45,748 bases of DNA from contig NZ_SJEE01000041.1 of the NCBI RefSeq assembly GCF_006937785.1, positions 1 through 45,748 of the forward strand. The letters run 5' to 3'. How positions within the stretch are numbered: position 1 is the first letter of the stretch; each line of letters begins with the position of its first letter. A program made the position numbers and the translations under genes. Shown here piece after piece: positions 28,227 through 45,748 of the stretch. Origin of the DNA: Pseudanabaena sp. UWO311 (GTDB taxonomy: Bacteria > Cyanobacteriota > Cyanobacteriia > Pseudanabaenales > Pseudanabaenaceae). Under the pieces are notes generated by a model, which saw only the letters and a program-made list of their open reading frames with translations, was not told where the DNA came from and did not search any database.

Positions 28227-28270
28227 TTTTTAGTGGTGCGGCAAAGCCGCACCACTAAAAATTAAATCTG
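28218..28270. terminator. 53-bp near-perfect palindrome spanning both convergent gene ends
   Basis: The left arm 28218-28242 (starting CAGATTTAATTTTTAG, ending GGTGCGGC) and the right arm 28246-28270 are exact complements around AAA. The stem includes the last codons and stop of both the NUDIX gene and the minus-strand cyclase gene. A bidirectional transcript-end signal is likely. Confidence 0.85.
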
Positions 28271-30913
28271 CGCTTTGCGTCCTGTGAGGAAATAAGTAGT
28301 CATTTCGCCTTTACCTTTGATCTCAATTGTTCTTTGGGTATCAAATTGGAACTTATTTTTTAAAATCTGATAGGTTACATCCGTGACTTGAATGCAACCT
28401 GCAATACCATGAGACTCCATGCGGCTAGCAATATTTACCGTGTCTCCCCAAAGATCATAGATAAACTTTTTCGTGCCGATCACACCTGCAACGGCTTGTC
28501 CAGTATGCATCCCAATTCTCATCTGGAAGGGATTTCCATCGGGGCGGATAAAACTGCAAATTGACTGCTGCATATCTAGAGCCATTGACGCGATCGCTTC
28601 AGCATGATCTGGTCTTGGCACAGGCAACCCACCGACTGCCATATAAGAATCTCCAATCGTTTTGATCTTTTCTAAGCCATAATGATCAACTAAGCGATCG
28701 AATTCTGAGAATATCTCATTGAGCATATTTACTAGTTCATTTGCTGTTACCGATGACGCAAATTCTGTAAAGCTGACGATATCGCCAAATAGAACTGTTA
28801 CTTCCTCGAAAGTATCTGCAACAATCGTACCGCTTTCTGTCTTGAGTCTGGATATCGACTTAGTCAATATCGCAGAAGTTCTATTAGTAGGAATATTGAT
28901 AGGAGTATAAATTGGGGAAGACTTCAATCGCTCGGCGATCGCTTTTGGTAAAACATTGAGCAGCAGACGTTCCGATCGCATTTTCTCAACTCGCAAATCA
29001 TCCTCGGCACGTCGGCGTTCTTGAGCTTCCATCCCTAAAGACAATAATTCTGATAAAGAGCTAGCAAATCCAATTTCCTCTAGCAGCCACAAACGCTCTA
29101 TACCGACTTGTTCAAACATCAAAAAGCCTATGATTTCACCACCAATATCAAATGACGATGTCAGTAGAGATACAACACCAAGAGGATTGAGATAGTCTGG
29201 TCGTAGCTCTTTTAATATTTCTTCATCCTGTACATCTTCTATCTGCAAGTTCTGATTTTCTTGTAATGCCGCAAAAAAGCTGGGAAATCTGTCTGCTCCT
29301 AGAAAATCCACCTCGGTATGAATATTGCTGCTTTGTATATAGAGATCGAGGCAATGTAGTCTGGTTTTAGGATTGTCAAATAGCCAGACACTCACACGCT
29401 CGACATCCATTGTCTGACCAGCTGTTTCGGTAATATTCTGCACTGCCATAATAAAGTCACCTAAGTTGAGAGCCTTGTTTTTGGTGAGATCAATCAAGAT
29501 TTTTTGTTGTCTGTGCAGTTGCTGTTCGCGACGTTGCAATAAAAAATTATTTCGTTTCAGTGATAGCTCACTCTCAGCTAGTTCGCTGGTTCTTTGATGC
29601 ACTCGTGAATCTAACTCCACATTCGCTTTTTCGAGGCGATTAAATGATTCTGTAAGCATTTCTGCCATGCGATTAAATGACTCAGACAAAACTTTGACTT
29701 CGCTAGTGCCTTTTACCAAAACCCTAGAGTCTAGATCGCCATTTGCGATCGCTTGAGATGCACCACTTAATTTGATCAATGGAGCCGTAATATAACGAGC
29801 TGTCACTACTCCCAGCAAAATCGCAAAAACTAGCGCCCCAAAACTAAATAAAATCGTGACTTGGTTGCGACTATTAATTTGTTCCATAAAACTAGATTCA
29901 GGCAACACCACCACAATTAACAAATCTAGTCCATCACGATCGCGCCAAGTACGAACTTGAATAAACTGCTTGCTCCCTTCAAAATTAGGTTCTAAGTGTT
30001 CTTTTCCTTCGAGTGAATTGAAATTACCAAATTCATTAATTAGATAGCGGGCTGTAGCTCTTGACAGGGGGTCATTACTATTTAGAATATTGAGCCGTTG
30101 GGGCTTTCCATTGACAATTGAAAAAGTAGGCTCATTATTAGAAGTTCCTACGATTAATCCAGAACGCTCAATTATAAAAATACGTCCTGACGGGTCTGGT
30201 TTTAAATCAACAAGGAACCTATTCAATTGCGTGAGAATAAAGTCAACACCCATTACCCCAATCACTTTGCGATCGCGATCGTAAAGTGGATAACTATGGG
30301 AAATAGACAAAACTTCAGGACGATCAATCCATTGATAAATGCTTGACCAAGTTGGCTTGCCTGCTTTTATGGCATCCGCATACCAAGCTTCTTGTCGGAC
30401 ATCATCATCAGTTTCGACTACTCCAATCAATTTTTGGCGATTACCTTCGCTATCGGTTGAAAATCTAGCTGTTTTAGTAATTCCTCGTGCTAAGGTTGTC
30501 TCATTAATTACGATTTGTCCATCGTCTCTACGCTCAACACCAATAAATTCTTGGTTGTCAAAAGCAAAATTAATATAACCAACTTGATGCAAATTTATTT
30601 GTGTCCAAAAGAAATGTCCTGTTTTCTGAAAATCTTTTAAATTTAGCAACCCTAGCTTTACTGCATCGACATTAGTCTGATTAATTTGCGATGGGACTTG
30701 AAAGTAATTATCAAGTTTTGTACTAATGCGATCGCTGACTTCTCCACTGAACCGAGTCGCGAGATCTCCGACTGCTTGCTGTCCATTCCGAAAAGAAAAT
30801 ATGCCAACTACACCAACCGTAATACACACCTGCACTACAAAAGGCACTACCAAAATAACCATTAACGGAATATTTTGAAATGACTTAGGTGTATATGAAA
30901 TTTTCAACATCAT
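28262..30913 (-). CDS. Adenylate cyclase, class III, with full dCache sensor, HAMP and GAF domains
   Basis: Domain order in the 883 residues: TM1 about 16-40; extracellular double-Cache sensor about 60-345; TM2 about 350-372; HAMP about 372-425 (ITAPLIKLSGASQAIANGDL); coiled coil; GAF-like domain about 485-640; then the conserved LLLNVLPKAIAERLK linker and a class III catalytic domain. The catalytic part has both metal-binding Asp (LFGDIVSFTEF and IKTIGDSYM) and the adenine-recognising Lys (KIKTIGD) and Asp (YDLWGDTVN), so ATP is the expected substrate. It is the first of three tandem paralogues in coordinate order and the last transcribed. The start of the next cyclase is upstream with a 23-bp gap. 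It is likely a membrane sensor controlling cAMP. Confidence 0.93.
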   Translation of the reverse strand: MMLKISYTPKSFQNIPLMVILVVPFVVQVCITVGVVGIFSFRNGQQAVGDLATRFSGEVSDRISTKLDNYFQVPSQINQTNVDAVKLGLLNLKDFQKTGHFFWTQINLHQVGYINFAFDNQEFIGVERRDDGQIVINETTLARGITKTARFSTDSEGNRQKLIGVVETDDDVRQEAWYADAIKAGKPTWSSIYQWIDRPEVLSISHSYPLYDRDRKVIGVMGVDFILTQLNRFLVDLKPDPSGRIFIIERSGLIVGTSNNEPTFSIVNGKPQRLNILNSNDPLSRATARYLINEFGNFNSLEGKEHLEPNFEGSKQFIQVRTWRDRDGLDLLIVVVLPESSFMEQINSRNQVTILFSFGALVFAILLGVVTARYITAPLIKLSGASQAIANGDLDSRVLVKGTSEVKVLSESFNRMAEMLTESFNRLEKANVELDSRVHQRTSELAESELSLKRNNFLLQRREQQLHRQQKILIDLTKNKALNLGDFIMAVQNITETAGQTMDVERVSVWLFDNPKTRLHCLDLYIQSSNIHTEVDFLGADRFPSFFAALQENQNLQIEDVQDEEILKELRPDYLNPLGVVSLLTSSFDIGGEIIGFLMFEQVGIERLWLLEEIGFASSLSELLSLGMEAQERRRAEDDLRVEKMRSERLLLNVLPKAIAERLKSSPIYTPINIPTNRTSAILTKSISRLKTESGTIVADTFEEVTVLFGDIVSFTEFASSVTANELVNMLNEIFSEFDRLVDHYGLEKIKTIGDSYMAVGGLPVPRPDHAEAIASMALDMQQSICSFIRPDGNPFQMRIGMHTGQAVAGVIGTKKFIYDLWGDTVNIASRMESHGIAGCIQVTDVTYQILKNKFQFDTQRTIEIKGKGEMTTYFLTGRKAQI

Positions 30914-30936
30914 TTATAACCAGTTTCACTAGTTTT

Positions 30937-33162
30937 TTATGCCTCAAGCCGGTCTTGGAGTAAGTATGTGATCATTTCTCCTTTGCCTTTGATATTAATA
31001 GCATTTCTCTGTTCAAGTTGATATTTGTTTTTTAAGATCTGATAGGTTGCTTCTGTTACTTGAATGCAGCCAGCAACGCCATGGGACTCCATCCGACTTG
31101 CTACGTTAACAGTATCTCCCCATAGATCATAAATAAATTTCTTCGTGCCGATTACGCCTGCGATCGCCTGTCCAGTATGAATGCCAATTCGTAATGAAAA
31201 GGGGCTGCCATCCAAGCGTTTAAATTTTTGAATTGATATTTGCATTTCCAGCGCCATTTCTGCGATCGCCACCGCATGATCTTTACTAGGTATTGGCAGA
31301 CCACCCACTGCCATATATGAATCACCGATGGTTTTAATCTTTTCTAGATCATATAAATCAACAAGACGATCAAATTCCGAGAAAATATCGTTCAGACAGT
31401 TTACCAAGTCGCTAGCAGAAATAGCTGCTGCATACTCAGTAAAATTTACGATATCTGCAAATAAAACCGTAACTTCATCATAGGCATCGGCGACAATTGC
31501 TCCATTAGTACCATTAGTCAGATTTTCTAACATAGGATCTGAGGATATATCTGGCATTTGGTTAGCATATGTCTCAGAAATTTTATTGGCTAAAGCTTTT
31601 GACTGCGATAATTTCAAACGCTCCACAATCTCTTGTGGTAAAACATTTAGCAGTAAGCGCTCTGACTTCATCTGCTCAATTCGGAGATTTTCTTCAGCAC
31701 GGTGTCGCTCTTGAGACTCCATTCCTAAGGATAAAAGATCCGCTAAAGAACTAGCAAAACTTAGCTCCTCGGATAGCCACAAATGCTCTACTTCAATATG
31801 TTCAAAAGCAATTATGCCAGTTACTTGACCATCGACTTCAAAGGTTTTGATTAATAAAGATACGGTTCCTGCGGTCTTAAAACAGGAATCTATTAGCTCT
31901 TGTAAATATTCTTCTTCTTGAACGTCTTCAACAGCCATGCTATGTTTCACTTGGAGGGCTGCAAAAAATTTGGGATAGTTCTGAGAAGTCAAAAAATCTG
32001 CTTCTGTATGAATATTAGTACTCTTAATATATAGATCCAGACAATGTAATAGAGTTTTAGTTTTATCAAATAGCCAGATGCTAACTCGCTCAACATTTAA
32101 AGCTTGGCTACCTGTGCGAGTAATATTTTGGACAGCATCGATAAAATTCCCTTGGTTAATTGCTTTGTCTTTAGTTAAACTGAATAGAATATCTTGCTGT
32201 TTACGAAGCAGACTTTCGCGGCGACTCAACAAAAAATTGGTGCGTTGGAGTGAGGATTTTGAGGCATTCAATTCATGGGTTCTTTCTTGAACACGTAATT
32301 CTAATTCTTGATTTGACTTTTCTAGTTGCAAAAGTGAATTCGCCATCATTTCTGCTAGCGTATTAAAGGATTCAGACAGCGCTCTAATTTCACTAGTTCC
32401 TTCTATTTGAACTCTAGTGTCAATCTTCCCATGGGTAATCGCTAGGGATGCTTCACTAAGTTTGTGAAGAGGCGTGCTAATAAATCTGGCAGTGAGAATT
32501 CCGATTGAAATAGAGATCGCTAACACAGCCAAATATAACAAAATCATCGTTTGTGTTTGATTTTGCATTGAGCCTGTAAATTGGGAAGCAGGAACAACGA
32601 TCACTATTAACCAATCTAGTCCATTACCGTCCCGCCAATTTTGTGCTCGAATAAAATATTCTTCACCAGCAAAAGCAACTTCTATATGTTCGGTTCCTTT
32701 AATTGCCTCAAATTTGCCATGCTTTTGCAGTAAATATTGCGCCGTTGATCGCGATAGAGGATCTTTACTATCAAGAATATTTAGTCGCTGTGGCTTGCCA
32801 TTTACGATCTGAAAGTTTTTCTCTGCATCAGAATTACCAACTACCAAGCCCGATCGCTCAATTATAAAAACTCGTCCTTTTTCGCTATATTTTAGACCTC
32901 GAAGAAATGTACTTATATCAATATTTGCCTGATTGATATTCGGTGTCAATTGTAAATGACTATGGAGTTCTGTACTAATGCGATCGCCCATTTCACTACT
33001 CAGGCTGGAGGCGATCGCACTTACTTTTTGTTGCCCGTTGCGAAAAGTGAATAGCCCAATTACTCCTGATGCTAGACAAATCTGGATCACAAATGGAACA
33101 ATTAAAACAATTTTAAGGGGAACATTTTTGAATGGCTTAGTTATATAAGGGATTTTAAACAT
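30937..33162 (-). CDS. Adenylate cyclase, class III, with shortened sensor domain
   Basis: This 741-residue paralogue of the preceding cyclase has the same TM1, juxtamembrane RNGQQ region, HAMP, GAF and catalytic domain. Its extracellular region lacks about 147 residues: after NINQANIDIS it jumps to FLRGLKYSEKGRVFIIERSG, which in the longer paralogue comes after a complete membrane-distal Cache subdomain. The membrane-proximal subdomain remains (KPQRLNILDSKDPLSR). The catalytic metal Asp residues (LFADIVNFTEY, GDSYMAVGG) and the ATP-selective Lys and Asp are intact. The loss of the distal, normally ligand-binding subdomain should change what it senses. It is co-directional with its neighbours. 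Confidence 0.92.
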   Translation of the reverse strand: MFKIPYITKPFKNVPLKIVLIVPFVIQICLASGVIGLFTFRNGQQKVSAIASSLSSEMGDRISTELHSHLQLTPNINQANIDISTFLRGLKYSEKGRVFIIERSGLVVGNSDAEKNFQIVNGKPQRLNILDSKDPLSRSTAQYLLQKHGKFEAIKGTEHIEVAFAGEEYFIRAQNWRDGNGLDWLIVIVVPASQFTGSMQNQTQTMILLYLAVLAISISIGILTARFISTPLHKLSEASLAITHGKIDTRVQIEGTSEIRALSESFNTLAEMMANSLLQLEKSNQELELRVQERTHELNASKSSLQRTNFLLSRRESLLRKQQDILFSLTKDKAINQGNFIDAVQNITRTGSQALNVERVSIWLFDKTKTLLHCLDLYIKSTNIHTEADFLTSQNYPKFFAALQVKHSMAVEDVQEEEYLQELIDSCFKTAGTVSLLIKTFEVDGQVTGIIAFEHIEVEHLWLSEELSFASSLADLLSLGMESQERHRAEENLRIEQMKSERLLLNVLPQEIVERLKLSQSKALANKISETYANQMPDISSDPMLENLTNGTNGAIVADAYDEVTVLFADIVNFTEYAAAISASDLVNCLNDIFSEFDRLVDLYDLEKIKTIGDSYMAVGGLPIPSKDHAVAIAEMALEMQISIQKFKRLDGSPFSLRIGIHTGQAIAGVIGTKKFIYDLWGDTVNVASRMESHGVAGCIQVTEATYQILKNKYQLEQRNAINIKGKGEMITYLLQDRLEA

Positions 33163-33273
33163 GTCGCATCATCAATATTGAGAATTACTAGAAATGCCTC
33201 AGCATAATTAAAAACCCGATTAAAAACCTTTAAAGCCTTCGCAACTGACAACTATATTTTTTGAATTTTATAT

Positions 33274-34842
33274 TTATCTTCGACCTTTCAGTAAATAAGT
33301 GATCATTTCTCCTTTACCTTTAATATTAATCGCACTTCTCCGATCGAGGTGATATTTTTCTTTTAAAAGTTGATAGGTTGCTTCAGTGACTTGCGTACAG
33401 CCTGCAATACCATAGGACTCCATCCGACTTGCTACATTAACAGTATCTCCCCAAAGATCATAAATAAATTTTTTCGTGCCAATTACACCTGCGATCGCCT
33501 GTCCAGTATGAATCCCGATCCGCAACGAAAAATTAGTGCCATCAGTCCGCTTAAATTTTTGAATCACAGTTTGCATTTGTAAAGCCATTTCCGCGATCGC
33601 CTCTGCATGATCTTTGCTAGGCACTGGTAGCCCGCCCACTACCATATAAGAGTCGCCAATAGTTTTAATTTTTTCTAAGTCATACTGCTCCACAAGATGA
33701 TCAAATTCCGAAAAAATCTCATTCAGAACATTGACTAATTCGCTTGCAGAAATAGAAGCTGCATATTCTGTAAAGTTTACAATGTCGGCAAATAGAACTG
33801 TAACTTCTTCAAAGGAATCCGCAATGATTGTGCCACTAGTTTTTAAATGTAGCTTTGTTTTAGATTGTACATTTTTCAACCGCTCAGCGATCTCTTGCGG
33901 TAAAACATTCAGTAAGAGACGTTCTGACTTCTTCTGCTCAACCCGTAAACTTTCTTCGGCACGACGGCGCTCTTGGGCTTCCATTCCTAAAGCTAATAGA
34001 TCAGCTAGAGAACTAGCAAAACTGATTTCTTCCTCTAGCCATAGATGCTCAATATCTGTATGTTCAAATGCGAGTATACCAATGATTTCGCCGCCTACTT
34101 CAAATCTAGAGAGGAGAACTGAAACAATATTAAAAGGTATGCAATATGGGAAGACTAATTCGCGAAAAATATCGTCATCTTGGACATCTTCGACCGCGAT
34201 GATGCGGTTCTCTAATAAAGCATCAAAAAGGCTAGGATATTCTGCTGCGGTTAAGGCTTCTGCTTCAGTATGTAAATGCAAGCTTTTTTGATAAAGATCG
34301 AGGCAATGCAATACAGTTTTCCTTTTATCGAAGAGCCAAATACTTACTCGCTCAACATTTAAGGCATAGCTACCTGTTCTGGTAATATTTTGTACTGCGA
34401 CAATAAAGTCCCCTTGATTGATTGCCTTATCTTTGGTTAAATCAAACAAAACATTCTGCTGTTTGCGTAGTTGCTGTTCACGCCGAGACAAAATGAAGTT
34501 AGTTCTTTGTAACGATGCTTTGGAGGCATCTAACTCATAGCTTGTTTCTTTAACGAGAGATTCTAGTTCCTGATTTGATTTTTTTAAGCGTTGTAAAGAA
34601 ACAATGCTCGATCGCACCAAGATGATGCCAATAGCGAACAGGAGCGTGATTCCCCCTAAAGGTACTAGCAATATCGGATCGTTCACGTTGTCAATATTCA
34701 GCATACTTAAATATTGTGGTTTAGGATCTAATTGACTATTAATATTGCCATCAAGTAGATTTCTGCTCCACAAAACTATTGCCATCATTTGCAACCCAAC
34801 AGTGACCGCTAAAGTAACCATTAGCGGCATATTGTGAAACAT
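33274..34842 (-). CDS. Adenylate cyclase, class III, without extracellular sensor
   Basis: The 522-residue third paralogue retains two hydrophobic segments, about 5-27 and 59-80 (LLVPLGGITLLFAIGIILV), separated by only about 35 residues, and a coiled coil (SLQRLKKSNQELESLV). Cache sensor and HAMP are absent. The GAF-like region (GDFIVAVQNITRTGSYALNV) and catalytic domain (LFADIVNFTEY, KIKTIGDSYMVVGG, YDLWGDTVNVASRM) are close to its neighbours. All catalytic and ATP-selective residues are in place. It is first in transcription order. It may be constitutive, regulated through the GAF, or a dimerisation partner for the sensor-bearing paralogues. Confidence 0.92.
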   Translation of the reverse strand: MFHNMPLMVTLAVTVGLQMMAIVLWSRNLLDGNINSQLDPKPQYLSMLNIDNVNDPILLVPLGGITLLFAIGIILVRSSIVSLQRLKKSNQELESLVKETSYELDASKASLQRTNFILSRREQQLRKQQNVLFDLTKDKAINQGDFIVAVQNITRTGSYALNVERVSIWLFDKRKTVLHCLDLYQKSLHLHTEAEALTAAEYPSLFDALLENRIIAVEDVQDDDIFRELVFPYCIPFNIVSVLLSRFEVGGEIIGILAFEHTDIEHLWLEEEISFASSLADLLALGMEAQERRRAEESLRVEQKKSERLLLNVLPQEIAERLKNVQSKTKLHLKTSGTIIADSFEEVTVLFADIVNFTEYAASISASELVNVLNEIFSEFDHLVEQYDLEKIKTIGDSYMVVGGLPVPSKDHAEAIAEMALQMQTVIQKFKRTDGTNFSLRIGIHTGQAIAGVIGTKKFIYDLWGDTVNVASRMESYGIAGCTQVTEATYQLLKEKYHLDRRSAINIKGKGEMITYLLKGRR

Positions 34843-35392: not shown

Positions 35393-37018
35393 ATGAGTCA
35401 ACTGTGGCAAGAGTTAGAGCGCGAAGTCGAACGGCGACGCACCTTTGCAATCATTTCCCACCCCGATGCGGGGAAAACGACGTTAACCGAAAAACTATTG
35501 CTATACGGAGGTGCGATCCATCTTGCGGGGGCGGTTAAGGCTAGAGCTGCGCAACGTCATGCTACTTCTGACTGGATGGAATTAGAAAAACAACGCGGCA
35601 TTTCGATTACTTCGACGGTGTTGCAATTTGACTATATGGGCTATTGCATTAATTTGCTGGATACCCCTGGGCACAAAGATTTTAGTGAAGATACCTATCG
35701 AACTCTTGCTGCTGCTGATAATGCGGTGATGTTGGTTGATGGTGCAAAGGGTTTAGAGCCTCAGACACGTAAATTGTTTGAAGTTTGTCGGTTGCGATCG
35801 CTGCCTATTTTTACGTTTATCAATAAGATGGATCGCCCGACCCGTGAGCCACTGGAACTATTGGACGAAATCGAGAAAGAATTGGGGATCACTCCCTATG
35901 TGATGAATTGGGCGATCGGTACGGGCGATCAGTTTAAAGGGGTGTACGATCGCGCTAGCAAAACGGTGCATCTATTTAAGCGAAGCTCTCATGGGCAGCG
36001 AGAAGCTGAGGTAAATATTTATCCTTTTGACGATCCGCAGGCTATCAAATTTATTGGTCAAAATCTTTATAATCAGCTTTTAGAAGATTTGGAGGTTCTT
36101 GATTCTGTTGGTGCTGAATGGAATACTCAGGATTTGCATCGCGGTAAGCTCACACCGATTTTCTTTGGTAGTGCGATGACTAATTTTGGTGTGGAACTAT
36201 TCTTAAAATCTTTCCTTGAATGTGGCTTGACTCCTACGGTTCATGACAGCTCTAGTGGCGAAGTGTCGCCAACTGATGAGGATTTCTCGGCGTTTGTATT
36301 TAAGCTGCAAGCAAATATGGACCCTCGTCACCGCGATCGCATTGCCTTTGTGCGCGTTTGCTCTGGCAAGTTTGAGAAGGACATGAGTGTTACCCATTTG
36401 CGGAGTGGCAAAAATATTCGGTTATCCCATGCTCAAAAGCTATTTGGTCAAGATCGTGAGGCGATCGATGTTGCTTATGCTGGTGATGTGATTGGGTTAA
36501 ATAATCCAGGTATGTTTGCGATCGGGGACACGATTTATATTGGTAAAAAACGCCAATATGCGGGGATTCCTTGCTTCTCGCCTGAGCTATTTTGTACTCT
36601 CCGCAATCCTAATCCTTCTAAGTTCAAGCAGTTCCGCAAAGGTATTTCTGAACTTCAAGAAGAAGGTGCTATTCAAATCATGTATTCTGTTGATGAGGCT
36701 AAGCGCGATCCGATTCTTGCGGCTGTGGGTCAGTTGCAATTTGAAGTGGCTCAATATCGTCTCCAAAGTGAATATAGTGTGGAAACGATTTTGGAATCTA
36801 TGCCCTATTCGGTGGCGCGATGGGTTGAGGATGGCTGGGATGCTTTAGAAGCTGTTGGCAGGTTGTTTAACACGATGGTGGTTAAAGATAGCTGGAATCG
36901 CCCTGTTTTGCTATTTAAGAATCAATGGAATTTAAATCAAGTTGAGGCTGACCATCCTAAGTTAAAGTTGAGGGCGATCGCGCCAATTGCCGAGCTAACC
37001 AAAGCTAACGTTAACTGA
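35393..37018 (+). CDS. prfC: Peptide chain release factor 3
   Basis: This 541-residue translational GTPase has G1 [19 protein letters not shown], the [12 protein letters not shown] switch region, G3 [16 protein letters not shown], and G4 [10 protein letters not shown]. Domain 2 and the RF3 C-terminal domain ([17 protein letters not shown]) follow. RF3 uses GTP to remove RF1 or RF2 from the ribosome after peptide release. Length and motifs are standard. Coq4 follows 21 bp downstream on the same strand, so the two are probably co-transcribed. Confidence 0.96.
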
Positions 37019-37039
37019 TTCTCAAATTTGTAATTTATT

Positions 37040-37705
37040 ATGACTGAATCACTAGAAGTAAAGCAACAGAGAGAAGAATTGCTGCTGTCGGCTTTTCTGG
37101 AAATGGTAAGATCGCCTGATGGCGATTTTGGTGTAATCGATCGCCTCGCTCAAGCTTCTAGCGATCTAGAAAGTTTGCAACTTATCATTAATTTTCTCGC
37201 CAATGAGCCTCAAGGCAAAGCTGCTTTTGCTAATTATCCTCGTCTAGGAGAAGTTGATTTAGAATTGCTTGCTCTGTTGCCAAGTCATACGCTGGGATAT
37301 GCCTATGCTAACCATATGTTGCAGAATGGACTGAAGCCGTTGCAAATTAAGCCCAGCAGCAATGATTATGAGTTTTTGGGTGCTCACATCACGGAAACTC
37401 ATGATATTTGGCATGTTGTGACGGGATTTAATACTAGTATTATTGGGGAGATTCAGTTAGAAGCTTTCTATGTTTCTCAACTTCAGGCGAGTAGATTTTG
37501 GCTGGCTTTAATTGCAAAGAATCTTCTCAAAAGTGTGGTCTATGATATTGAGCGTTCTGCTGAGTATATGGATGCGATCGCCGAAGGATGGATGATGGCA
37601 AAACATGCTAAGCCTCTATTTGGTATAGATTGGAAGTCTCTATGGTCAACGCCTCTAGATGAGGTTCGTGATGTTTTAAATATTAAGAGCAGTTTTAATC
37701 TCTAA
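37040..37705 (+). CDS. Coq4-like protein
   Basis: The 221 residues contain the Coq4 metal motif HDIWHVVTGFNTSIIGE, that is HDxxH followed by E eleven residues later. LGYAYANHMLQNGL and a final GWMMAKHAKPLFGIDW match the family. In ubiquinone-making organisms Coq4 organises the biosynthetic complex and has been linked to ring decarboxylation and hydroxylation. Cyanobacteria make plastoquinone, so the role here is uncertain; a quinone-related function is the obvious inference. It follows release factor 3 by 21 bp. The stop codon (37703-37705) lies inside a decayed CRISPR repeat. Confidence 0.85.
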   Translation: MTESLEVKQQREELLLSAFLEMVRSPDGDFGVIDRLAQASSDLESLQLIINFLANEPQGKAAFANYPRLGEVDLELLALLPSHTLGYAYANHMLQNGLKPLQIKPSSNDYEFLGAHITETHDIWHVVTGFNTSIIGEIQLEAFYVSQLQASRFWLALIAKNLLKSVVYDIERSAEYMDAIAEGWMMAKHAKPLFGIDWKSLWSTPLDEVRDVLNIKSSFNL

Positions 37706-37728
37706 AAGGGTTTTAGAGGCATAATTCG
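37692..37728 (-). repeat. Decayed trailer-end CRISPR repeat overlapping the Coq4 stop codon
   Basis: From 37692 the sequence GTTTTAATCTCTAAAAGGGT followed by TTTAGAGGC matches the array repeat at 26 of the first 29 bases. All three differences are C to T on the plus strand (repeat positions 5, 10 and 23). Beyond position 29 it no longer matches. The separation from the first intact repeat is about 21 bases, shorter than normal spacers. The Coq4 frame uses AATCTCTAA from this repeat as its final Asn-Leu-stop. Confidence 0.8.
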
Positions 37729-37749
37729 TAATTTGTAATTGTTAAAATC

Positions 37750-40700
37750 GTTTCAATCCCTAAAAGGGTTTCAGAGGCTTTGAATCAGAGATGCAACCGC
37801 ATCACTGCCCAAAAATGGTTTATATGTGTTTCAATCCCTAAAAGGGTTTCAGAGGCTTTGAATCTCCTGCTCTCTTAGCACCGCCAGCACACAGTTTTCG
37901 TTTCAATCCCTAAAAGGGTTTCAGAGGCTTTGAATCTTCTTTTTGTCAATCCTGCATAGCGCCCACCCTCACTGTTTCAATCCCTAAAAGGGTTTCAGAG
38001 GCTTTGAATCAGCAGCAGTTTGGGCGCTTAGGAAAAATGATCGCTCGGTTTCAATCCCTAAAAGGGTTTCAGAGGCTTTGAATCGATCTCACTTGCCAAA
38101 CTGCCAGATTTAAAATTTGTTTCAATCCCTAAAAGGGTTTCAGAGGCTTTGAATCTACGGTTACTTAAATCCGCCTCTATCACCTTTGGGTTTCAATCCC
38201 TAAAAGGGTTTCAGAGGCTTTGAATCGCCCAATCACGTCATTGATGAGTAATGCACCTCCAATGTTTCAATCCCTAAAAGGGTTTCAGAGGCTTTGAATC
38301 CTATATGGCTGGTTCTAGAAAGGATGTCAATTATGTGTTTCAATCCCTAAAAGGGTTTCAGAGGCTTTGAATCTACCTCAAAGGCTTTTGCTGTATACGA
38401 AACCTATGTTTCAATCCCTAAAAGGGTTTCAGAGGCTTTGAATCATTTGCTTTTTAGCCGCATCCGTACCCGTCCTTCGTTTCAATCCCTAAAAGGGTTT
38501 CAGAGGCTTTGAATCATTTACGCAATCTCTCGTAATAATTGGAATCCAGAGTTTCAATCCCTAAAAGGGTTTCAGAGGCTTTGAATCTTACTAGTTAACG
38601 ACGTTAACCAGTCAATGGGTTTGTTTCAATCCCTAAAAGGGTTTCAGAGGCTTTGAATCTTGATACGGATGTCCCGTTGCCGAAAATACGTTGCTTGTCA
38701 CATTGTTTCAATCCCTAAAAGGGTTTCAGAGGCTTTGAATCCTCTAAAGCTTAATTTAACCGATAACCTATCTATTGTTTCAATCCCTAAAAGGGTTTCA
38801 GAGGCTTTGAATCAGATTGAATCCTTGGAAATGCGGGTTTTGGCGCTGTTTCAATCCCTAAAAGGGTTTCAGAGGCTTTGAATCCGATTGCAGATAAAAG
38901 GTATATCGCTTTCACCTTCGTTTCAATCCCTAAAAGGGTTTCAGAGGCTTTGAATCTTAGGTCTGTCATCTTGCCAACCTCTCAGCATAAAGTTTCAATC
39001 CCTAAAAGGGTTTCAGAGGCTTTGAATCCTACCGATAGACCAGTAATCAAGCTAAAGATTATCGTTTCAATCCCTAAAAGGGTTTCAGAGGCTTTGAATC
39101 TTGGTATTTCATTACTAGATGAGCTATTTGACGTAGGCTGCGTTTCAATCCCTAAAAGGGTTTCAGAGGCTTTGAATCATTCTATAATATAAAATAGAGA
39201 AGCCTTTTTTAACGTTTCAATCCCTAAAAGGGTTTCAGAGGCTTTGAATCGGAGAAAACTCATGTCTGTATACACTAAAAAATCTGTTTCAATCCCTAAA
39301 AGGGTTTCAGAGGCTTTGAATCAGAAGATTAGTGGAACTCTGGTAGATCCTGTTTGCGTTTCAATCCCTAAAAGGGTTTCAGAGGCTTTGAATCAACGCC
39401 ATTAAAATTTGAGAATTTAGGAACCTCAAGTTTCAATCCCTAAAAGGGTTTCAGAGGCTTTGAATCAGTTGCAATTGGTTCTGTATTAGTCCTAATCGAT
39501 GTTTCAATCCCTAAAAGGGTTTCAGAGGCTTTGAATCTTACTGTTTCTAAGGGCATGAGTGGTTGCTTTCCGTTTCAATACCTAAAAGGGTTTCAGAGGC
39601 TTTGAATCTAACATGATTAACAAGGCAGTCACACAGTACGCACGTTTCAATCCCTAAAAGGGTTTCAGAGGCTTTGAATCTTCGTCTCTCACGCTTCTCT
39701 TCCTACAGGTACTATGTTTCAATCCCTAAAAGGGTTTCAGAGGCTTTGAATCCCACTATCAGGCTCCTGCACCACACCCGCGATCGTTAATTCGGTGTTT
39801 CAATCCCTAAAAGGGTTTCAGAGGCTTTGAATCTTGAATTAATCGTCCTCAAAAACCGATACGGTAGGTTTCAATCCCTAAAAGGGTTTCAGAGGCTTTG
39901 AATCCTCGTTTCTCAGCATCAATCCGAGATTTTACTGATGGTTTCAATCCCTAAAAGGGTTTCAGAGGCTTTGAATCCCGCACCATCCGCAAAGTAGAAG
40001 ATGTAACCAAGCTGTTTCAATCCCTAAAAGGGTTTCAGAGGCTTTGAATCAACAGTAAAAGCAGTTGTCGCAACAGTAGATATAGGTTTCAATCCCTAAA
40101 AGGGTTTCAGAGGCTTTGAATCAAAACAGAAATCGAAGCAGGGAAATGGGTAGATCCGTTTCAATCCCTAAAAGGGTTTCAGAGGCTTTGAATCAACCTA
40201 TCAGGCGATCAAACGGTGTCATCGATTTGGTTTCAATCCCTAAAAGGGTTTCAGAGGCTTTGAATCATCGCTTCTCTCGCTGCACCTATTCGTTTAGATT
40301 CATTTGTTTCAATCCCTAAAAGGGTTTCAGAGGCTTTGAATCTCAGACAATTTGGAAGATTATCGACAATATCAAAGTTTCAATCCCTAAAAGGGTTTCA
40401 GAGGCTTTGAATCTTCATTGGTTCTGGTTTATGGGTATCTGGTTTTAGGTTTCAATCCCTAAAAGGGTTTCAGAGGCTTTGAATCTGTTGGTGGTGCTTT
40501 ACTCATTAATGATGTCATTGGTTTCAATCCCTAAAAGGGTTTCAGAGGCTTTGAATCCTGAACTAACAAGCATAATGCGTATGGTGCAAGCCCTAGTTTC
40601 AATCCCTAAAAGGGTTTCAGAGGCTTTGAATCCAAAGGTTCAATTTGTATCTTTAGATGGGAATCAGTTTCAATCCCTAAAAGGGTTTCAGAGGCTTTGA

Positions 40701-43700
40701 ATCTCCTTGGTAATGCAGCTAAGCAGGGTGCGGATAGCAAGTTTCAATCCCTAAAAGGGTTTCAGAGGCTTTGAATCTCAACAGTAGCCTCATTACGAAG
40801 CATTGCCGCTTGTTTCAATCCCTAAAAGGGTTTCAGAGGCTTTGAATCTTTTTATCTCTCAATGGCGATCGCACTTTCAACTCGTTTCAATCCCTAAAAG
40901 GGTTTCAGAGGCTTTGAATCAATCCTTTCGGTGGCTATACCAATCCCACTTATGGTTTCAATCCCTAAAAGGGTTTCAGAGGCTTTGAATCGCAAAAATC
41001 GCGTAAAGAACTTTTAAGCTATACGAGTTTCAATCCCTAAAAGGGTTTCAGAGGCTTTGAATCCGAATGGCACTTAATTAATATTGAAATCGACAAGTTT
41101 CAATCCCTAAAAGGGTTTCAGAGGCTTTGAATCTAACGCTGATCCCTGTAAGGATACGCTTCGTCTCATCGTTTCAATCCCTAAAAGGGTTTCAGAGGCT
41201 TTGAATCCGAGTTCCTGTCGTCTCATCAAACTTCCAGAAAGCGTTTCAATCCCTAAAAGGGTTTCAGAGGCTTTGAATCTACCTGTCACTATTTTCAGAG
41301 GCTTGCAAAATGATTGTTTCAATCCCTAAAAGGGTTTCAGAGGCTTTGAATCTAAAACTAAAATCTCAAGAGGTCTCAAGATATTATGTTTCAATCCCTA
41401 AAAGGGTTTCAGAGGCTTTGAATCAGGAATTGTTAATTTTAACGGTGGTGGCTTTGTTGTTTCAATCCCTAAAAGGGTTTCAGAGGCTTTGAATCCTGGT
41501 TCGATCGTTCGATCGATTACTTGCAACGGGGTGTTTCAATCCCTAAAAGGGTTTCAGAGGCTTTGAATCCCTGCTGTCTGTTGCACTGGCTGAGATTGAC
41601 TGTAGTTTCAATCCCTAAAAGGGTTTCAGAGGCTTTGAATCTTTAAGCTATCTAGGCTTAGTCAAACCTTGTCTAGTGAAGTTTCAATCCCTAAAAGGGT
41701 TTCAGAGGCTTTGAATCTCATGGCTAAACCTCCGTTAGCTCTGAATGTGCGTTTCAATCCCTAAAAGGGTTTCAGAGGCTTTGAATCAATGAAATTGACA
41801 AGGTAGTAGTTAAGCCACAAATTGTTTCAATCCCTAAAAGGGTTTCAGAGGCTTTGAATCTGGGAGTGCTACCCCCAGAAGCTATAGTTGCGATTGGTTT
41901 CAATCCCTAAAAGGGTTTCAGAGGCTTTGAATCGCTTGCGCCCCGCCCATTTGCAAACGTGGTTTCAAGTTTCAATCCCTAAAAGGGTTTCAGAGGCTTT
42001 GAATCAATCTCTCTAGTGAATGGGGAAAGCCCTGTGATTTTGCAGTTTCAATCCCTAAAAGGGTTTCAGAGGCTTTGAATCCTAATTTGCGATTAGCAAC
42101 TTTTAAATTCTCGTCAGTAACAGGTTTCAATCCCTAAAAGGGTTTCAGAGGCTTTGAATCATCCGTCTTCACCAAGTAAAATCGCGCCGCTAGAATCGTT
42201 TCAATCCCTAAAAGGGTTTCAGAGGCTTTGAATCGCAAATCAGCAGTCGGCTAAACTTGCTTTCGATGTTTCAATCCCTAAAAGGGTTTCAGAGGCTTTG
42301 AATCGTGGCATTAATTAAATCTTCGTGCGCTTTATTTACTGTTTCAATCCCTAAAAGGGTTTCAGAGGCTTTGAATCTTAGGGCTTGGCTCTACGCTTAT
42401 ATCAATTTTCTCGTTTCAATCCCTAAAAGGGTTTCAGAGGCTTTGAATCAGGCTTAAATCTATACTTGAATATCGCGATACCTCGTTTCAATCCCTAAAA
42501 GGGTTTCAGAGGCTTTGAATCTCTTATGCCAGTCTCTGAGATTATTGGCAGCATGCGTTTCAATCCCTAAAAGGGTTTCAGAGGCTTTGAATCTTTATAA
42601 GTTTTGGGAGTGGTTATTTAATTTACCAGGTTTCAATCCCTAAAAGGGTTTCAGAGGCTTTGAATCTCAAGGAAAATCAAATGAATAGCACATCTTGGTT
42701 GTTTCAATCCCTAAAAGGGTTTCAGAGGCTTTGAATCAGCTAAATCCCAGTTGAGTTTAGATATCTGCTCTGTTTCAATCCCTAAAAGGGTTTCAGAGGC
42801 TTTGAATCTCCCAAGCGAAGAAATAGTAATCGGTTGAACCAGCGTTTCAATCCCTAAAAGGGTTTCAGAGGCTTTGAATCAATGGGGAGAAGATGACGAT
42901 ATTCTCTCTGTACGTATGTTTCAATCCCTAAAAGGGTTTCAGAGGCTTTGAATCAGAGGTTCCGACAAGTTGTCGGAACCTCAAAATATGTTTCAATCCC
43001 TAAAAGGGTTTCAGAGGCTTTGAATCTACACGCTAAAACTAGGATTCGCCGAAATATTCCATGTTTCAATCCCTAAAAGGGTTTCAGAGGCTTTGAATCT
43101 TGGGCTTACCTTTTGCGGATTGAATCAAAGCTCAAATGTAGTTTCAATCCCTAAAAGGGTTTCAGAGGCTTTGAATCCAAGTATTTGAGCGATCAGGCGG
43201 CGTTTGTGCGGATGTTTCAATCCCTAAAAGGGTTTCAGAGGCTTTGAATCCATTGATGATCGCTGCTCCTTCCAATGGCACATATGTTTCAATCCCTAAA
43301 AGGGTTTCAGAGGCTTTGAATCTGTAGCGATATCGTAGCCAGTCACTTCGCAGACTACGTTTCAATCCCTAAAAGGGTTTCAGAGGCTTTGAATCTTTAG
43401 TCCATGATTTACCTGATAGCAAGCTTGCCGTTTCAATCCCTAAAAGGGTTTCAGAGGCTTTGAATCGTGGTGATTTGGGCTGTGCCTCTGTAACCTAAAC
43501 CAGAGTTTCAATCCCTAAAAGGGTTTCAGAGGCTTTGAATCGATTCTAGGGCTAGCAAAAGGCATATAAACACCTTGTTTCAATCCCTAAAAGGGTTTCA
43601 GAGGCTTTGAATCGATAATTCCAATCAAGGGAATTTACATCAAGTCTTGTTTCAATCCCTAAAAGGGTTTCAGAGGCTTTGAATCCTAATCTAGCCGCTC

Positions 43701-43974
43701 ATGCTGAAATTGTCTATTATGTTTCAATCCCTAAAAGGGTTTCAGAGGCTTTGAATCACTACATATCAGTTGCTTGATTTATCGCTAGTTCCGTTTCAAT
43801 CCCTAAAAGGGTTTCAGAGGCTTTGAATCATGAGCCATCAACAGCATCAAAGCTACTTTCATCTTGTTTCAATCCCTAAAAGGGTTTCAGAGGCTTTGAA
43901 TCTGTACTTTATCATCCCACTCAGATTCGATATAGCAGTTTCAATCCCTAAAAGGGTTTCAGAGGCTTTGAATC
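37750..43974 (-). CRISPR. CRISPR array, 86 repeats and 85 spacers
   Basis: By hand I count 86 repeats of 37 bp, first at 37750-37786 and last at 43938-43974. Plus-strand sequence starts GTTTCAATCCCTAAAAGGGT and ends CAGAGGCTTTGAATC. In reverse complement it ends GGGATTGAAAC, giving the ATTGAAAC 5' handle typical of type I and III crRNAs, so transcription is leftwards on the minus strand. CCCT/AGGG around AAA can form a small hairpin. Spacers range from 33 to 45 bases, mostly 34-37. The only internal repeat variant I saw is at 39572 (CAATACC instead of CAATCCC). cas2 and cas1 lie at the right (leader) end. The length implies long-term activity. Confidence 0.98.
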
Positions 43975-44242
43975 CGCCCGCGCTTGAGAAGTATAACATA
44001 TTTGGTTTTCAAGGTACATTTGCGCGAACCATCAGAATTATAGCAGATTTTGGCATGATCACGCGATCGCAGAACTTGTAGCAAACACATGAAAGCTAGA
44101 CATACCAACACATTCAAAACTTGCGCGAAACGAAAACCCATCTCGATCGCACCCAAATATATACCAGCAAATACTTCTAACCTACCAAAACTCATAGCAC
44201 TCAAAAACACACCCGAACTCCCGCGCAACCCATGAACCAAAA
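43975..44242 (-). promoter_or_regulatory. CRISPR leader region
   Basis: This 268-bp A/T- and A-rich stretch between the cas2 stop and the first-transcribed repeat has no convincing gene. On the minus strand TGTTATACT (complement of 43990-43998) is an extended -10 motif whose predicted start would be within about ten bases of the array. It is therefore a candidate array promoter, without a good -35. A HIP1 site lies near 44063. An open frame crossing the region is judged spurious. Confidence 0.6.
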
Positions 44243-44515
44243 TCAAGCAAAAAAGATAGTCGTATCTAGAAGTTGCTCACCACCAATACGTTCTATTTTA
44301 GGCTGACAGCAACCGCAAAGAAAGTAAAAGCGAATACTATCCTCATCAGGCTTAATCAACTTACTCAAACGCGATCGCAATTTGGCATATTGAGCATCCG
44401 TAAGCTCACACTCAAACACACTAAACTGCATCCATTGCCCATAGGATTTGAGAATCTTATGGATTTTAGTACGGCGTTTATCTTCGGAGATATCGTAGGA
44501 GATGACTAGGAACAT
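44243..44515 (-). CDS. cas2: CRISPR-associated protein Cas2
   Basis: The 90 residues start MFLVISYDISEDKRRTKIHK, with the conserved Asp8 of the Cas2 ferredoxin fold. YGQWMQFSVFECELTDAQYA and the RFYFLCGCC strand follow, all standard for Cas2. The C-terminus (IERIGGEQLLDTTIFFA) is the usual swapped strand. Cas2 dimers bridge two Cas1 dimers to integrate new spacers at the leader end. It is downstream of cas1 on the same strand, but separated by 172 bp containing two heptamer tracts, so co-transcription is possible but not tight. Confidence 0.96.
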   Translation of the reverse strand: MFLVISYDISEDKRRTKIHKILKSYGQWMQFSVFECELTDAQYAKLRSRLSKLIKPDEDSIRFYFLCGCCQPKIERIGGEQLLDTTIFFA

Positions 44516-44518
44516 TGA

Positions 44519-44610
44519 TTTGGTAATTGGTGATGGGTAATTGGTAATTGATGACGGGTGATGGGTAATGGGTAATGGGTAATGGGTAATGGGTAATGGG
44601 TGATGGGTAA
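44519..44610 (+). repeat. Heptanucleotide tandem repeat tract A (GGTAATT/GGTAATG)
   Basis: About 13 consecutive seven-base units of the form GGTRATK (GGTAATT, GGTGATG, GGTAATG) begin four bases upstream of the cas2 start codon. Such short tandemly repeated repetitive sequences of period seven are known from filamentous cyanobacteria. The tract occupies the region where the cas2 ribosome binding site would be expected. Confidence 0.9.
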
Positions 44611-44635
44611 ACCTAAGTTAAAAAGAAGATATCAA

Positions 44636-44684
44636 TCCCCAATTACCAATCACCAATCCCCAATCCCCAATTACCAATTACCAA
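44636..44684 (-). repeat. Heptanucleotide tract B, inverted relative to tract A
   Basis: Seven-base units CCCCAAT, TACCAAT and CACCAAT on the plus strand are the reverse complement of the GGTAATT/GGGGATT family. It ends four bases before the cas1 stop codon (44688). Together with tract A it forms a long potential hairpin between cas1 and cas2. Confidence 0.9.
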
Positions 44685-44687
44685 AAA

Positions 44688-45692
44688 CTACTTCATCACC
44701 AACGGTGGATACTTATCCGTCTCATCCATCAAATACTTAGCCAACAAACGCGCTTGAAGCTCAAAAGCCTCCTGATAAGTACATTTACGCCCCATTACAG
44801 GATGCTTAAATTCTGACTGTTTTTTCTGCTCGTAAAGCGTTAAAAATACTTTTCTTGCCTCATTAGATAGAGAAATCGCCTTACTCAAAGGTTCAGAAGT
44901 AAAATCCTTGGGCGCGATTGCCTTGCGATTAATAGCCGACAGCACGATCGCATCGACAATCAAGGGACGAAACTCCTCCATCAGGTCAAGAGCAAGACTG
45001 GGACGACCATAGCGCTCCATATGCAAATAGCCAAGATAAGGATCGAAACCGACAATATTTAGCGCCCCCTGCACATCGTGACGTAATAGAGAATAGCCAA
45101 AACTCAACATCGCATTCACAGGATCGGTCGGTGGGCGGCGGTTGCGAGTCGTAAAGCTAAAACCATCGGCGCGAATTAATTTGGGGAAAGCTTGCCAATA
45201 GACAGCACTGCCATGCCCCTCCACACCCCGCAAACTAGCGATCGCCTGAATCGCCGCCAACGAATCAATCGCCCGTTCGAGAGCATCAATCGCCTTCTGT
45301 AAGTCATTATCAGGATAATCCCGCAGATGCCGCATTAATGACGCTCGATAATTTTTTAACTTGCCGCGCACAAAGGCTTGCACCATATGGATCGCCTTCG
45401 GTGTTTCTCCTGCGGCATCCCACTGCGATCGCCTGACAAAAATATTTTTAGTTAGCTCAGGTTCCAAACGACCGAGAAAGCGCCCCGTACCTGTCATAAA
45501 GGACATCGGGATTTTTCGCTCTAAGAGTTCGATCACTGCCGCAGGTGAAATTGTCGCACGACCGAGGATTACCAGCCCATCAATTTTGATTAGTGGAATA
45601 TCTAGGATTTGCTTTTTCTCAGCCTTTACCGTTAAGCGTTCATCGGTCTTGCCAATAAATGAATCATCGTGAGTTATGTAGAGGGTTCCCAT
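44688..45692 (-). CDS. cas1: CRISPR-associated endonuclease Cas1 (I-D-like)
   Basis: The 334-residue Cas1 begins with the beta-rich domain (MGTLYITHDDSFIGKTDERL). The catalytic helical domain has metal ligands Glu158 in RGVEGHGS, His224 in YLGYLHMERYG and Asp236 in SLALDLMEEFRP. The opening GTLYITxDD and length are like Cas1 of cyanobacterial I-D loci, and the repeat type agrees; a I-A or III context is possible. It integrates new spacers with Cas2. It is bordered on both sides by heptamer tracts in opposite orientation. Effector genes are expected further right. Confidence 0.95.
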   Translation of the reverse strand: MGTLYITHDDSFIGKTDERLTVKAEKKQILDIPLIKIDGLVILGRATISPAAVIELLERKIPMSFMTGTGRFLGRLEPELTKNIFVRRSQWDAAGETPKAIHMVQAFVRGKLKNYRASLMRHLRDYPDNDLQKAIDALERAIDSLAAIQAIASLRGVEGHGSAVYWQAFPKLIRADGFSFTTRNRRPPTDPVNAMLSFGYSLLRHDVQGALNIVGFDPYLGYLHMERYGRPSLALDLMEEFRPLIVDAIVLSAINRKAIAPKDFTSEPLSKAISLSNEARKVFLTLYEQKKQSEFKHPVMGRKCTYQEAFELQARLLAKYLMDETDKYPPLVMK

Positions 45693-45700
45693 AGTTTTTT

Positions 45701-45748
45701 GGGTAATTGGTAATTGGTAATTGGGGATTGGGGATTGGGGATTGGGGA
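45701..45748 (+). repeat. Heptanucleotide tract C at the right edge
   Basis: Units GGTAATT repeat about three times and then change to GGGGATT, continuing to the window edge. The orientation is that of tract A and opposite to tract B, so cas1 sits between inverted heptamer tracts. It lies nine bases upstream of the cas1 start, where promoter or ribosome-binding elements would be expected. Confidence 0.9.

Follow-up and report, generated by a model that had tools for sequence, protein, structure and literature searches.

The 221-residue Coq4 of Pseudanabaena sp. UWO311 (G000) ends inside the outermost repeat of a neighboring CRISPR array, and the repeat provides the last residues of the protein together with its stop codon. 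Within contig NZ_SJEE01000041.1 (the window, 45,748 nucleotides), the coq4-family gene spans 37040-37705 on the plus strand with a TAA stop codon at 37703-37705, and the leader-distal, or terminal, repeat lies at 37692-37720 on the minus strand; the two overlap at 37692-37705, a stretch that takes in the second and third bases of codon 218, all of codons 219-221 (Phe, Asn, Leu), and the stop. We consider it likely that one rearrangement joined the leader-distal end of the array to the 3' end of coq4, a neutral capture of the gene end, and that the repeat decayed later.

The terminal repeat, GTTTTAATCTCTAAAAGGGTTTTAGAGGC, matches bases 1-29 of the array repeat at 26 of 29 positions, and all three differences are C-to-T changes, at repeat positions 5, 10, and 23. 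A full repeat measures 37 bases (GTTTCAATCCCTAAAAGGGTTTCAGAGGCTTTGAATC in the printed orientation), of which the final eight, TTTGAATC, are unrecognizable in the terminal copy (1/8 matches, 27/37 overall), leaving 29 of 37 bases that can still be recognized. When 100 dinucleotide shuffles of the window were searched at a threshold of at most three mismatches, no match to the repeat was returned, so that the homology exceeds chance; in the orthologous copy of Pseudanabaena sp. lw0831 (G019), 36 of 37 bases agree. The distance from the start of the terminal repeat to that of the next is 58 bases, compared with 70-82 elsewhere in the array. The sequence-only reading had described the 26/29 match with its three C-to-T changes, an interval of about 21 bases to the next repeat, and a coq4 frame that closes within the repeat as Asn-Leu-stop; all of these observations hold, the interval when a 37-base footprint is assumed.

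The 29 bases between the terminal repeat and the first intact repeat (37721-37749) are unlike a normal spacer and hold a member of a dispersed heptamer repeat. In place of the repeat tail and a normal spacer, a heptamer tandem, ATTCGTAATTTGTAATT, is found at 37724-37740, and searching the genome for this ATTCGTA-type heptamer at up to one mismatch gave 119 matches (61 + 58, with overlapping matches counted separately) compared with 0 for a control pattern. Short tandem heptamer repeats of cyanobacteria go by the name STRR, and a 1997 paper by Vioque, cited in PMC4748335, is reportedly, to judge by its title, devoted to them. The window heptamer resembles these in type, as a dispersed 7-base tandem, and no named family was matched. 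Short heptamer tandems of the GGTAATT/GGTAATG types also lie beside cas1 and cas2, at 44519-44684 and 45699-45748.

The array proper (37750-43974, minus strand) comprises 86 repeats of 37 bases, 85 of them identical and one with a single change, and 85 spacers of 33-45 bases. Past its last repeat lies the leader side (43975-44242, minus strand), with similar sequence at this place in several genomes of the genus, followed by cas2 (44243-44515, minus strand; PF09827, E 1.8e-29) and cas1 (44688-45692, minus strand; PF01867, E 2.2e-100), after which the contig stops. Given that leader, cas2, and cas1 (43975-45692) all sit at the far side, the site at 37692 is the leader-distal end of the array, and coq4 and the array are convergent. 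The reverse complement of the repeat terminates in ATTGAAAC, which we take to be the usual 5' handle of crRNAs; this repeat end and the position of the leader place the crRNA sense, in all likelihood, on the minus strand. In PADLOC searches, the best model for Cas2 is Cas2d and that for Cas1 is Cas1c (356 bits), with Cas1d at 320 bits, and the Cas1 homologue on plasmid ABRG53e carries the annotation cas1d. The locus of G019 matches the models Cas3d, Cas10d, Cas7d, Cas5d, Cas6d, and Cas4d, and the leader-cas2-cas1 block recurs on two complete plasmids, pPg_01 of P. galeata CCNP1313 and ABRG53e of Pseudanabaena sp. ABRG5-3, where it is annotated as type I-D. On the basis of the G019 effector models and these plasmid annotations, the CRISPR system is probably of type I-D. 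The window shares the arrangement of leader, cas2, and cas1 with cyanobacterial systems of this type but differs in that its neighbors are the chromosomal prfC and coq4 rather than a plasmid, its effector genes fall beyond the contig end, and its Cas1 scores highest with the Cas1c model. In both plasmid strains coq4 is carried on a separate, chromosome-sized contig, C1 (as a remnant in P. galeata), and other strains likewise have coq4 on a contig different from that of the array or the cas1-cas2 block.

The match of Coq4 to PF05019 (E 3.7e-26) covers residues 14-216 and profile positions 16-218 of 221, which is near full length, and the protein ends in Ser-Ser-Phe-Asn-Leu-stop. Because repeat base 1 is the second base of codon 218, Phe219, Asn220, Leu221, and the TAA are repeat-derived. 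An intact repeat placed in the coq4 frame reads TTC AAT CCC TAA, or Phe-Asn-Pro-stop, and of the three changes in the window one is synonymous (TTC to TTT), one replaces Pro with Leu, and the third lies 3' of the stop. The stop therefore predates the decay and is not its product, as the G019 copy also shows, which qualifies the earlier description of a decayed repeat that supplies it. The same reading had proposed that the repeat rewrote the Coq4 C-terminus; this stands insofar as the end is derived from the array, but the extent is small, since only residues 217-221 are affected and these fall just beyond the end of the Pfam match. The window protein is three residues longer than the 218-residue orthologues of G020 and G021. 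Between G000 and G019, Coq4 is 97% identical with a dN of 0.0176 and a dS of 0.273, and this low dN relative to dS argues that the protein remained under selection with its new end, the consequences of which for Coq4 are probably slight.

A protein search for Coq4 across 58 genomes found it in part of the genus: among the 25 other Pseudanabaena genomes, 9 gave no match and 6 gave only a match of 28-32% identity. The junction between coq4 and the repeat is shared with G019, whose Coq4 ends in NLRSSFNP where that of the window ends in NIKSSFNL, each followed directly by the stop. In G019, the terminal repeat carries 1 change in 37 bases and is followed by a 35-base spacer and 55 further repeats, and in both genomes the bases GAGCA immediately precede repeat base 1, so that the boundary is identical. 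Near its leader-distal end the G019 array (L072, reverse complement 277-1194, G019:C81) contains a variant repeat, GGGCTTC...GAAGC, in 13 of 56 repeats before the standard form resumes. Neither the SSFN[L/P] residues nor the repeat DNA was found in any of the seven array-free Pseudanabaena orthologues with a readable 3' end. Six of these are intact and end, each before its stop, in NIKIL (G020 and G021), NIRIL (G002), NIKVQQ (G008), NIQIT (G017), and NIVTI (G005); the seventh, a pseudogene in G022, stops after DVL. The same Coq4 ending was also absent from 17 more distant loci (the 21 loci from named genomes minus those of G019 and G011 and the bacterial L070 and L071). A recurring 24-base word within 3.5 kb 3' of coq4 was found in none of 16 of these 17, the exception being L066 with a short tandem repeat; L059, L066, and L068 provided less than 1.2 kb of sequence for this search. 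The alignment of C-termini from strains with and without the array, which the sequence-only reading had put forward as its check, thus supports a derived overlap in which the last Coq4 residues come from the array.

In near relatives, the coq4 copy is broken in three different ways (L010 in G018, L011 in G022, and L003 in G011). In G018 the frame stops prematurely at codon 47 and homology is lost near codon 82, and in G011 the gene is cut past codon 191, where a repeated element takes over. This element (L003:2074-2172) is an abundant repeat that fragments these assemblies; it recurs at many contig ends of G011 and, at 98% identity, in G000, at contig ends such as C8, C28, and C55. As G018 and G011 lack the 3' end of coq4 and G022 retains a 3' fragment, the state that preceded the join is absent from these relatives. 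The remnant in G022 (L011) ends in a perfect inverted repeat, GATGTTTTATAGCAAA...TTTGCTATAAAACATC, and G022 diverges from G000 about 13 bases ahead of the start of the G000 array.

Gene trees give conflicting accounts of how these genomes are related. In trees that were all drawn with midpoint roots, prfC, the gene before coq4, groups G000 with G019 (100/100), whereas two longer loci, one of 3.9 kb from a different part of the window and one of 1.9 kb from another contig, group G000 with G018 and place G019 outside (100/99 and 97/96, respectively). A 300-base locus joins G019 with G018 (90/91), and two more stretches and most of a third were left out because they hold too little shared sequence. 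We dropped the view of G000 and G019 as simple sister species, as the two longer loci contradict the prfC tree. Over coq4 bases 1-237, there are 5 differences between G000 and G011 and 18 between G000 and G019, and trees of the prfC-coq4 region (35393-37705) and of other loci name different closest relatives, with the start of coq4 nearest to G011. The discordant trees and the start of coq4 show signs of what may be recombination between species. G018 holds no repeat of this kind and no good match to the leader-cas2-cas1 block; either the junction predates the split of G018, which would then have lost the coq4 end and the array, or the prfC-coq4-array segment was exchanged.

The spacers do not connect the two arrays. 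None is common to G000 (85 spacers) and G019 (55), and none is shared between any two of six arrays compared over the portions retrieved, so that shared spacers fail as proof of array orthology. Within the window, no spacer matches sequence outside the array at up to four mismatches over its first 32 bases. Given that G000 and G019 share no spacer, the repeat that anchors the array in coq4 has outlived every one of them, and repeat-to-repeat recombination would account for this turnover without any special function.

Terminal repeats across the genus provide a background for the decay seen in the window. The repeat pattern was found in 17 of 26 Pseudanabaena genomes, and we inspected 15 leader-distal ends, one per genome; additional arrays in G014, G020, and G022, like the single copies of G025 and G012, are outside this set. 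Exclusion of the end G005:C249, which starts 5 bases from a contig end, left 14 ends, of which only those of G000 and G019, with their same junction, have a plus-strand frame of at least 60 residues that ends within the terminal repeat. On the opposite strand of G001 (L145:6155-6715), a 186-residue frame with a TTG start inside the array crosses the terminal repeat and a spacer; it matches an IS1595-type transposase at residues 64-167 and resembles the remains of a transposase gene whose frame extends back into the array. After exclusion of G008:C181, a single repeat, 13 ends could be compared with their own array consensus, and the terminal repeat differs from it in 10, the unchanged copies being those of G023, G015 (three repeats seen), and G014:C144. 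The expectation that leader-distal repeats commonly degenerate, as stated in the sequence-only reading, is therefore upheld in this genus. The window fits this pattern, with its last repeat off consensus and the others nearly identical, but the copy doubles as the end of a protein-coding gene, and in the crRNA sense its coq4-facing 3' part is better kept and the 8 bases of its leader-facing 5' part are gone. Degeneration of terminal repeats at the 3' side is reported for Escherichia and Salmonella (PMC2886076), as a pattern rather than a strict definition, and G020, G021, and G022, where changes or replacement affect the outer part of the repeat, fit this description. The degeneration in G000 is not on the crRNA-sense 3' side, as the 8 lost bases belong to the 5' side; the substitution at position 5 is on the 3' side.

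The deamination signature with which the three C-to-T changes had been called compatible is not established. Given three G:C-to-A:T changes, the chance that all are C-to-T on this strand is 0.07, and that all fall on either one strand is 0.19. T at position 23 is the usual base in arrays of G014 (C58), G021, G023, and G001, and changes in other terminal repeats are mixed, comprising G>A in each of G019, G010, and G001, T>C in G011, G>T and A>G in G024, and T>C, G>A, C>T, and G>T in G006. G:C to A:T changes account for 8 of 13 changes across seven terminal repeats and 5 of 10 without the window, in a tally that leaves out the block changes of G020, G021, and G022. A general lean toward G:C to A:T in terminal repeats, with no special pattern, is possible.

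Taken with the orthologue comparison, these patterns point to the following sequence of events. A DNA rearrangement, occurring once in a lineage leading to G000 and G019, would have fused the 3' end of coq4, a few bases at most from its native stop codon, to the leader-distal end of a probable type I-D array. The intact repeat, read as Phe-Asn-Pro-stop, would have replaced the lost stop at once and kept the gene functional, and both species would have received the junction either by inheritance or through exchange of this chromosome segment. In the window lineage, the anchor repeat would then have gained its three C-to-T changes and lost the 8 bases on its leader side, next to a copy of the dispersed heptamer, and the spacers would have turned over completely. 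From the junction observed in both species and the low dN/dS of coq4, we infer the single event and its order: the same boundary and flank in both species make one common join the simplest account, and the nearly intact copy in G019 suggests that the intact repeat came first and decayed later in G000. The earlier proposal that the array had reached or eroded into coq4 is partly borne out, in that array DNA is joined to the gene. Terminal repeats are usually changed (10 of the 13 informative ends), and those of G020, G021, and G022 have an altered or replaced outer part; this would suit an array that first ended in intergenic DNA and was brought into coq4 by small deletions that rewrote its C-terminus. 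However, G000 and G019 both have the boundary exactly at repeat base 1 and retain the part of the repeat that faces coq4, and what G000 has lost lies on the opposite, leader side, all of which makes gradual erosion unlikely, and less likely than one join. The absence of shared spacers (85 versus 55), the different first inter-repeat stretches, and the two loci that place the array-free G018 nearer to G000 than G019 is could reflect separate joins of array and gene in the two genomes, yet the identical boundary and preceding GAGCA and the prfC tree make two such events very improbable. That coq4 has a repeat-like 3' end of its own by chance can practically be dismissed, and was already refuted, as 0 of 100 shuffles gave a match, the repeat is absent from array-free orthologues, and the near-intact copy of G019 is followed by a normal 35-base spacer and 55 repeats.

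A different kind of explanation would make the changed repeat a functional gene-end element, for example a hairpin protecting or terminating the transcript of coq4 or of the array. With two of the three changes, the imperfect stem of the repeat becomes a perfect palindrome of 8 pairs, CTCTAAAA-GGG-TTTTAGAG, and the Watson-Crick stem grows from 3 to 8 pairs. In the crRNA sense, the 37-base footprint folds at -6.2 kcal/mol with a z of -4.37, and in the coq4 sense z is -2.11 over 37 bases and -1.04 over 58 bases. Such a stem arises in 2 of 20 possible C-to-T triples, although among transition triples no more than 52 of 3654 produce it. Even without the changes, the canonical repeat folds with G-U pairs in the crRNA sense, and T at position 23 is the standard base in the arrays of G014 (C58), G021, G023, and G001. 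A functional hairpin is thus improbable, and we rejected the palindrome as a selected terminator, given that 2 of 20 C-to-T triples suffice, that 37500-37850 contains no terminator-like site, and that no Rfam family matches in 37000-38000. Most likely, the overlap serves no purpose in itself, and the array functions as any CRISPR array would.

With a single join as the preferred account, the overlap probably represents a small evolutionary accident, a neat rearrangement that changed little for the protein. It is a clear example of a chromosomal gene that has co-opted a CRISPR repeat for coding sequence and stop codon, and the relative G019 preserves the earlier, nearly intact repeat. Among the papers listed in a search that lay mostly outside subscription journals, titles and abstract openings gave no description of a CRISPR repeat that supplies the stop of a neighboring gene. 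The outermost repeat can outlast every spacer and offers a fixed landmark for measuring array turnover. A more speculative and rather doubtful extension is that the coq4 frame holds the distal end of the array, such that the outermost repeat cannot be lost and decay is confined to its leader-facing side. If this were true, loss of the coq4-facing half of the anchor repeat, which carries the coq4 stop, would damage the gene, and all spacers could turn over with the outermost repeat staying in place. G000 has lost the inner part of its repeat and retained the part that faces coq4, as would be expected if coq4 protects its own stop codon; this is one case.

The second boundary of the rearranged segment was not located. 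Insertion of a plasmid was considered as the source of the join, as the cas locus is plasmid-borne in G021 and G022, but the flank of G019 is mostly free of plasmid matches: over the 37.4 kb beyond its cas genes (C81:20000-57399), plasmid records match at most 14% and 4% of two pieces, in near mode only. By these comparisons, the far side in G019 appears to be a rearranged chromosome segment rather than clear plasmid DNA. A stretch beyond the CRISPR-Cas locus of this genome (G019:C81:13881-18317) is also present in G011 and partly in G008, where it is located upstream of the cyclase-prfC-coq4 block, a placement that suggests an inversion. Elsewhere in the window, 28262-34842 holds three similar tandem minus-strand ORFs, which we take to be nucleotide cyclases with sensor parts and whose number seems to vary among relatives.
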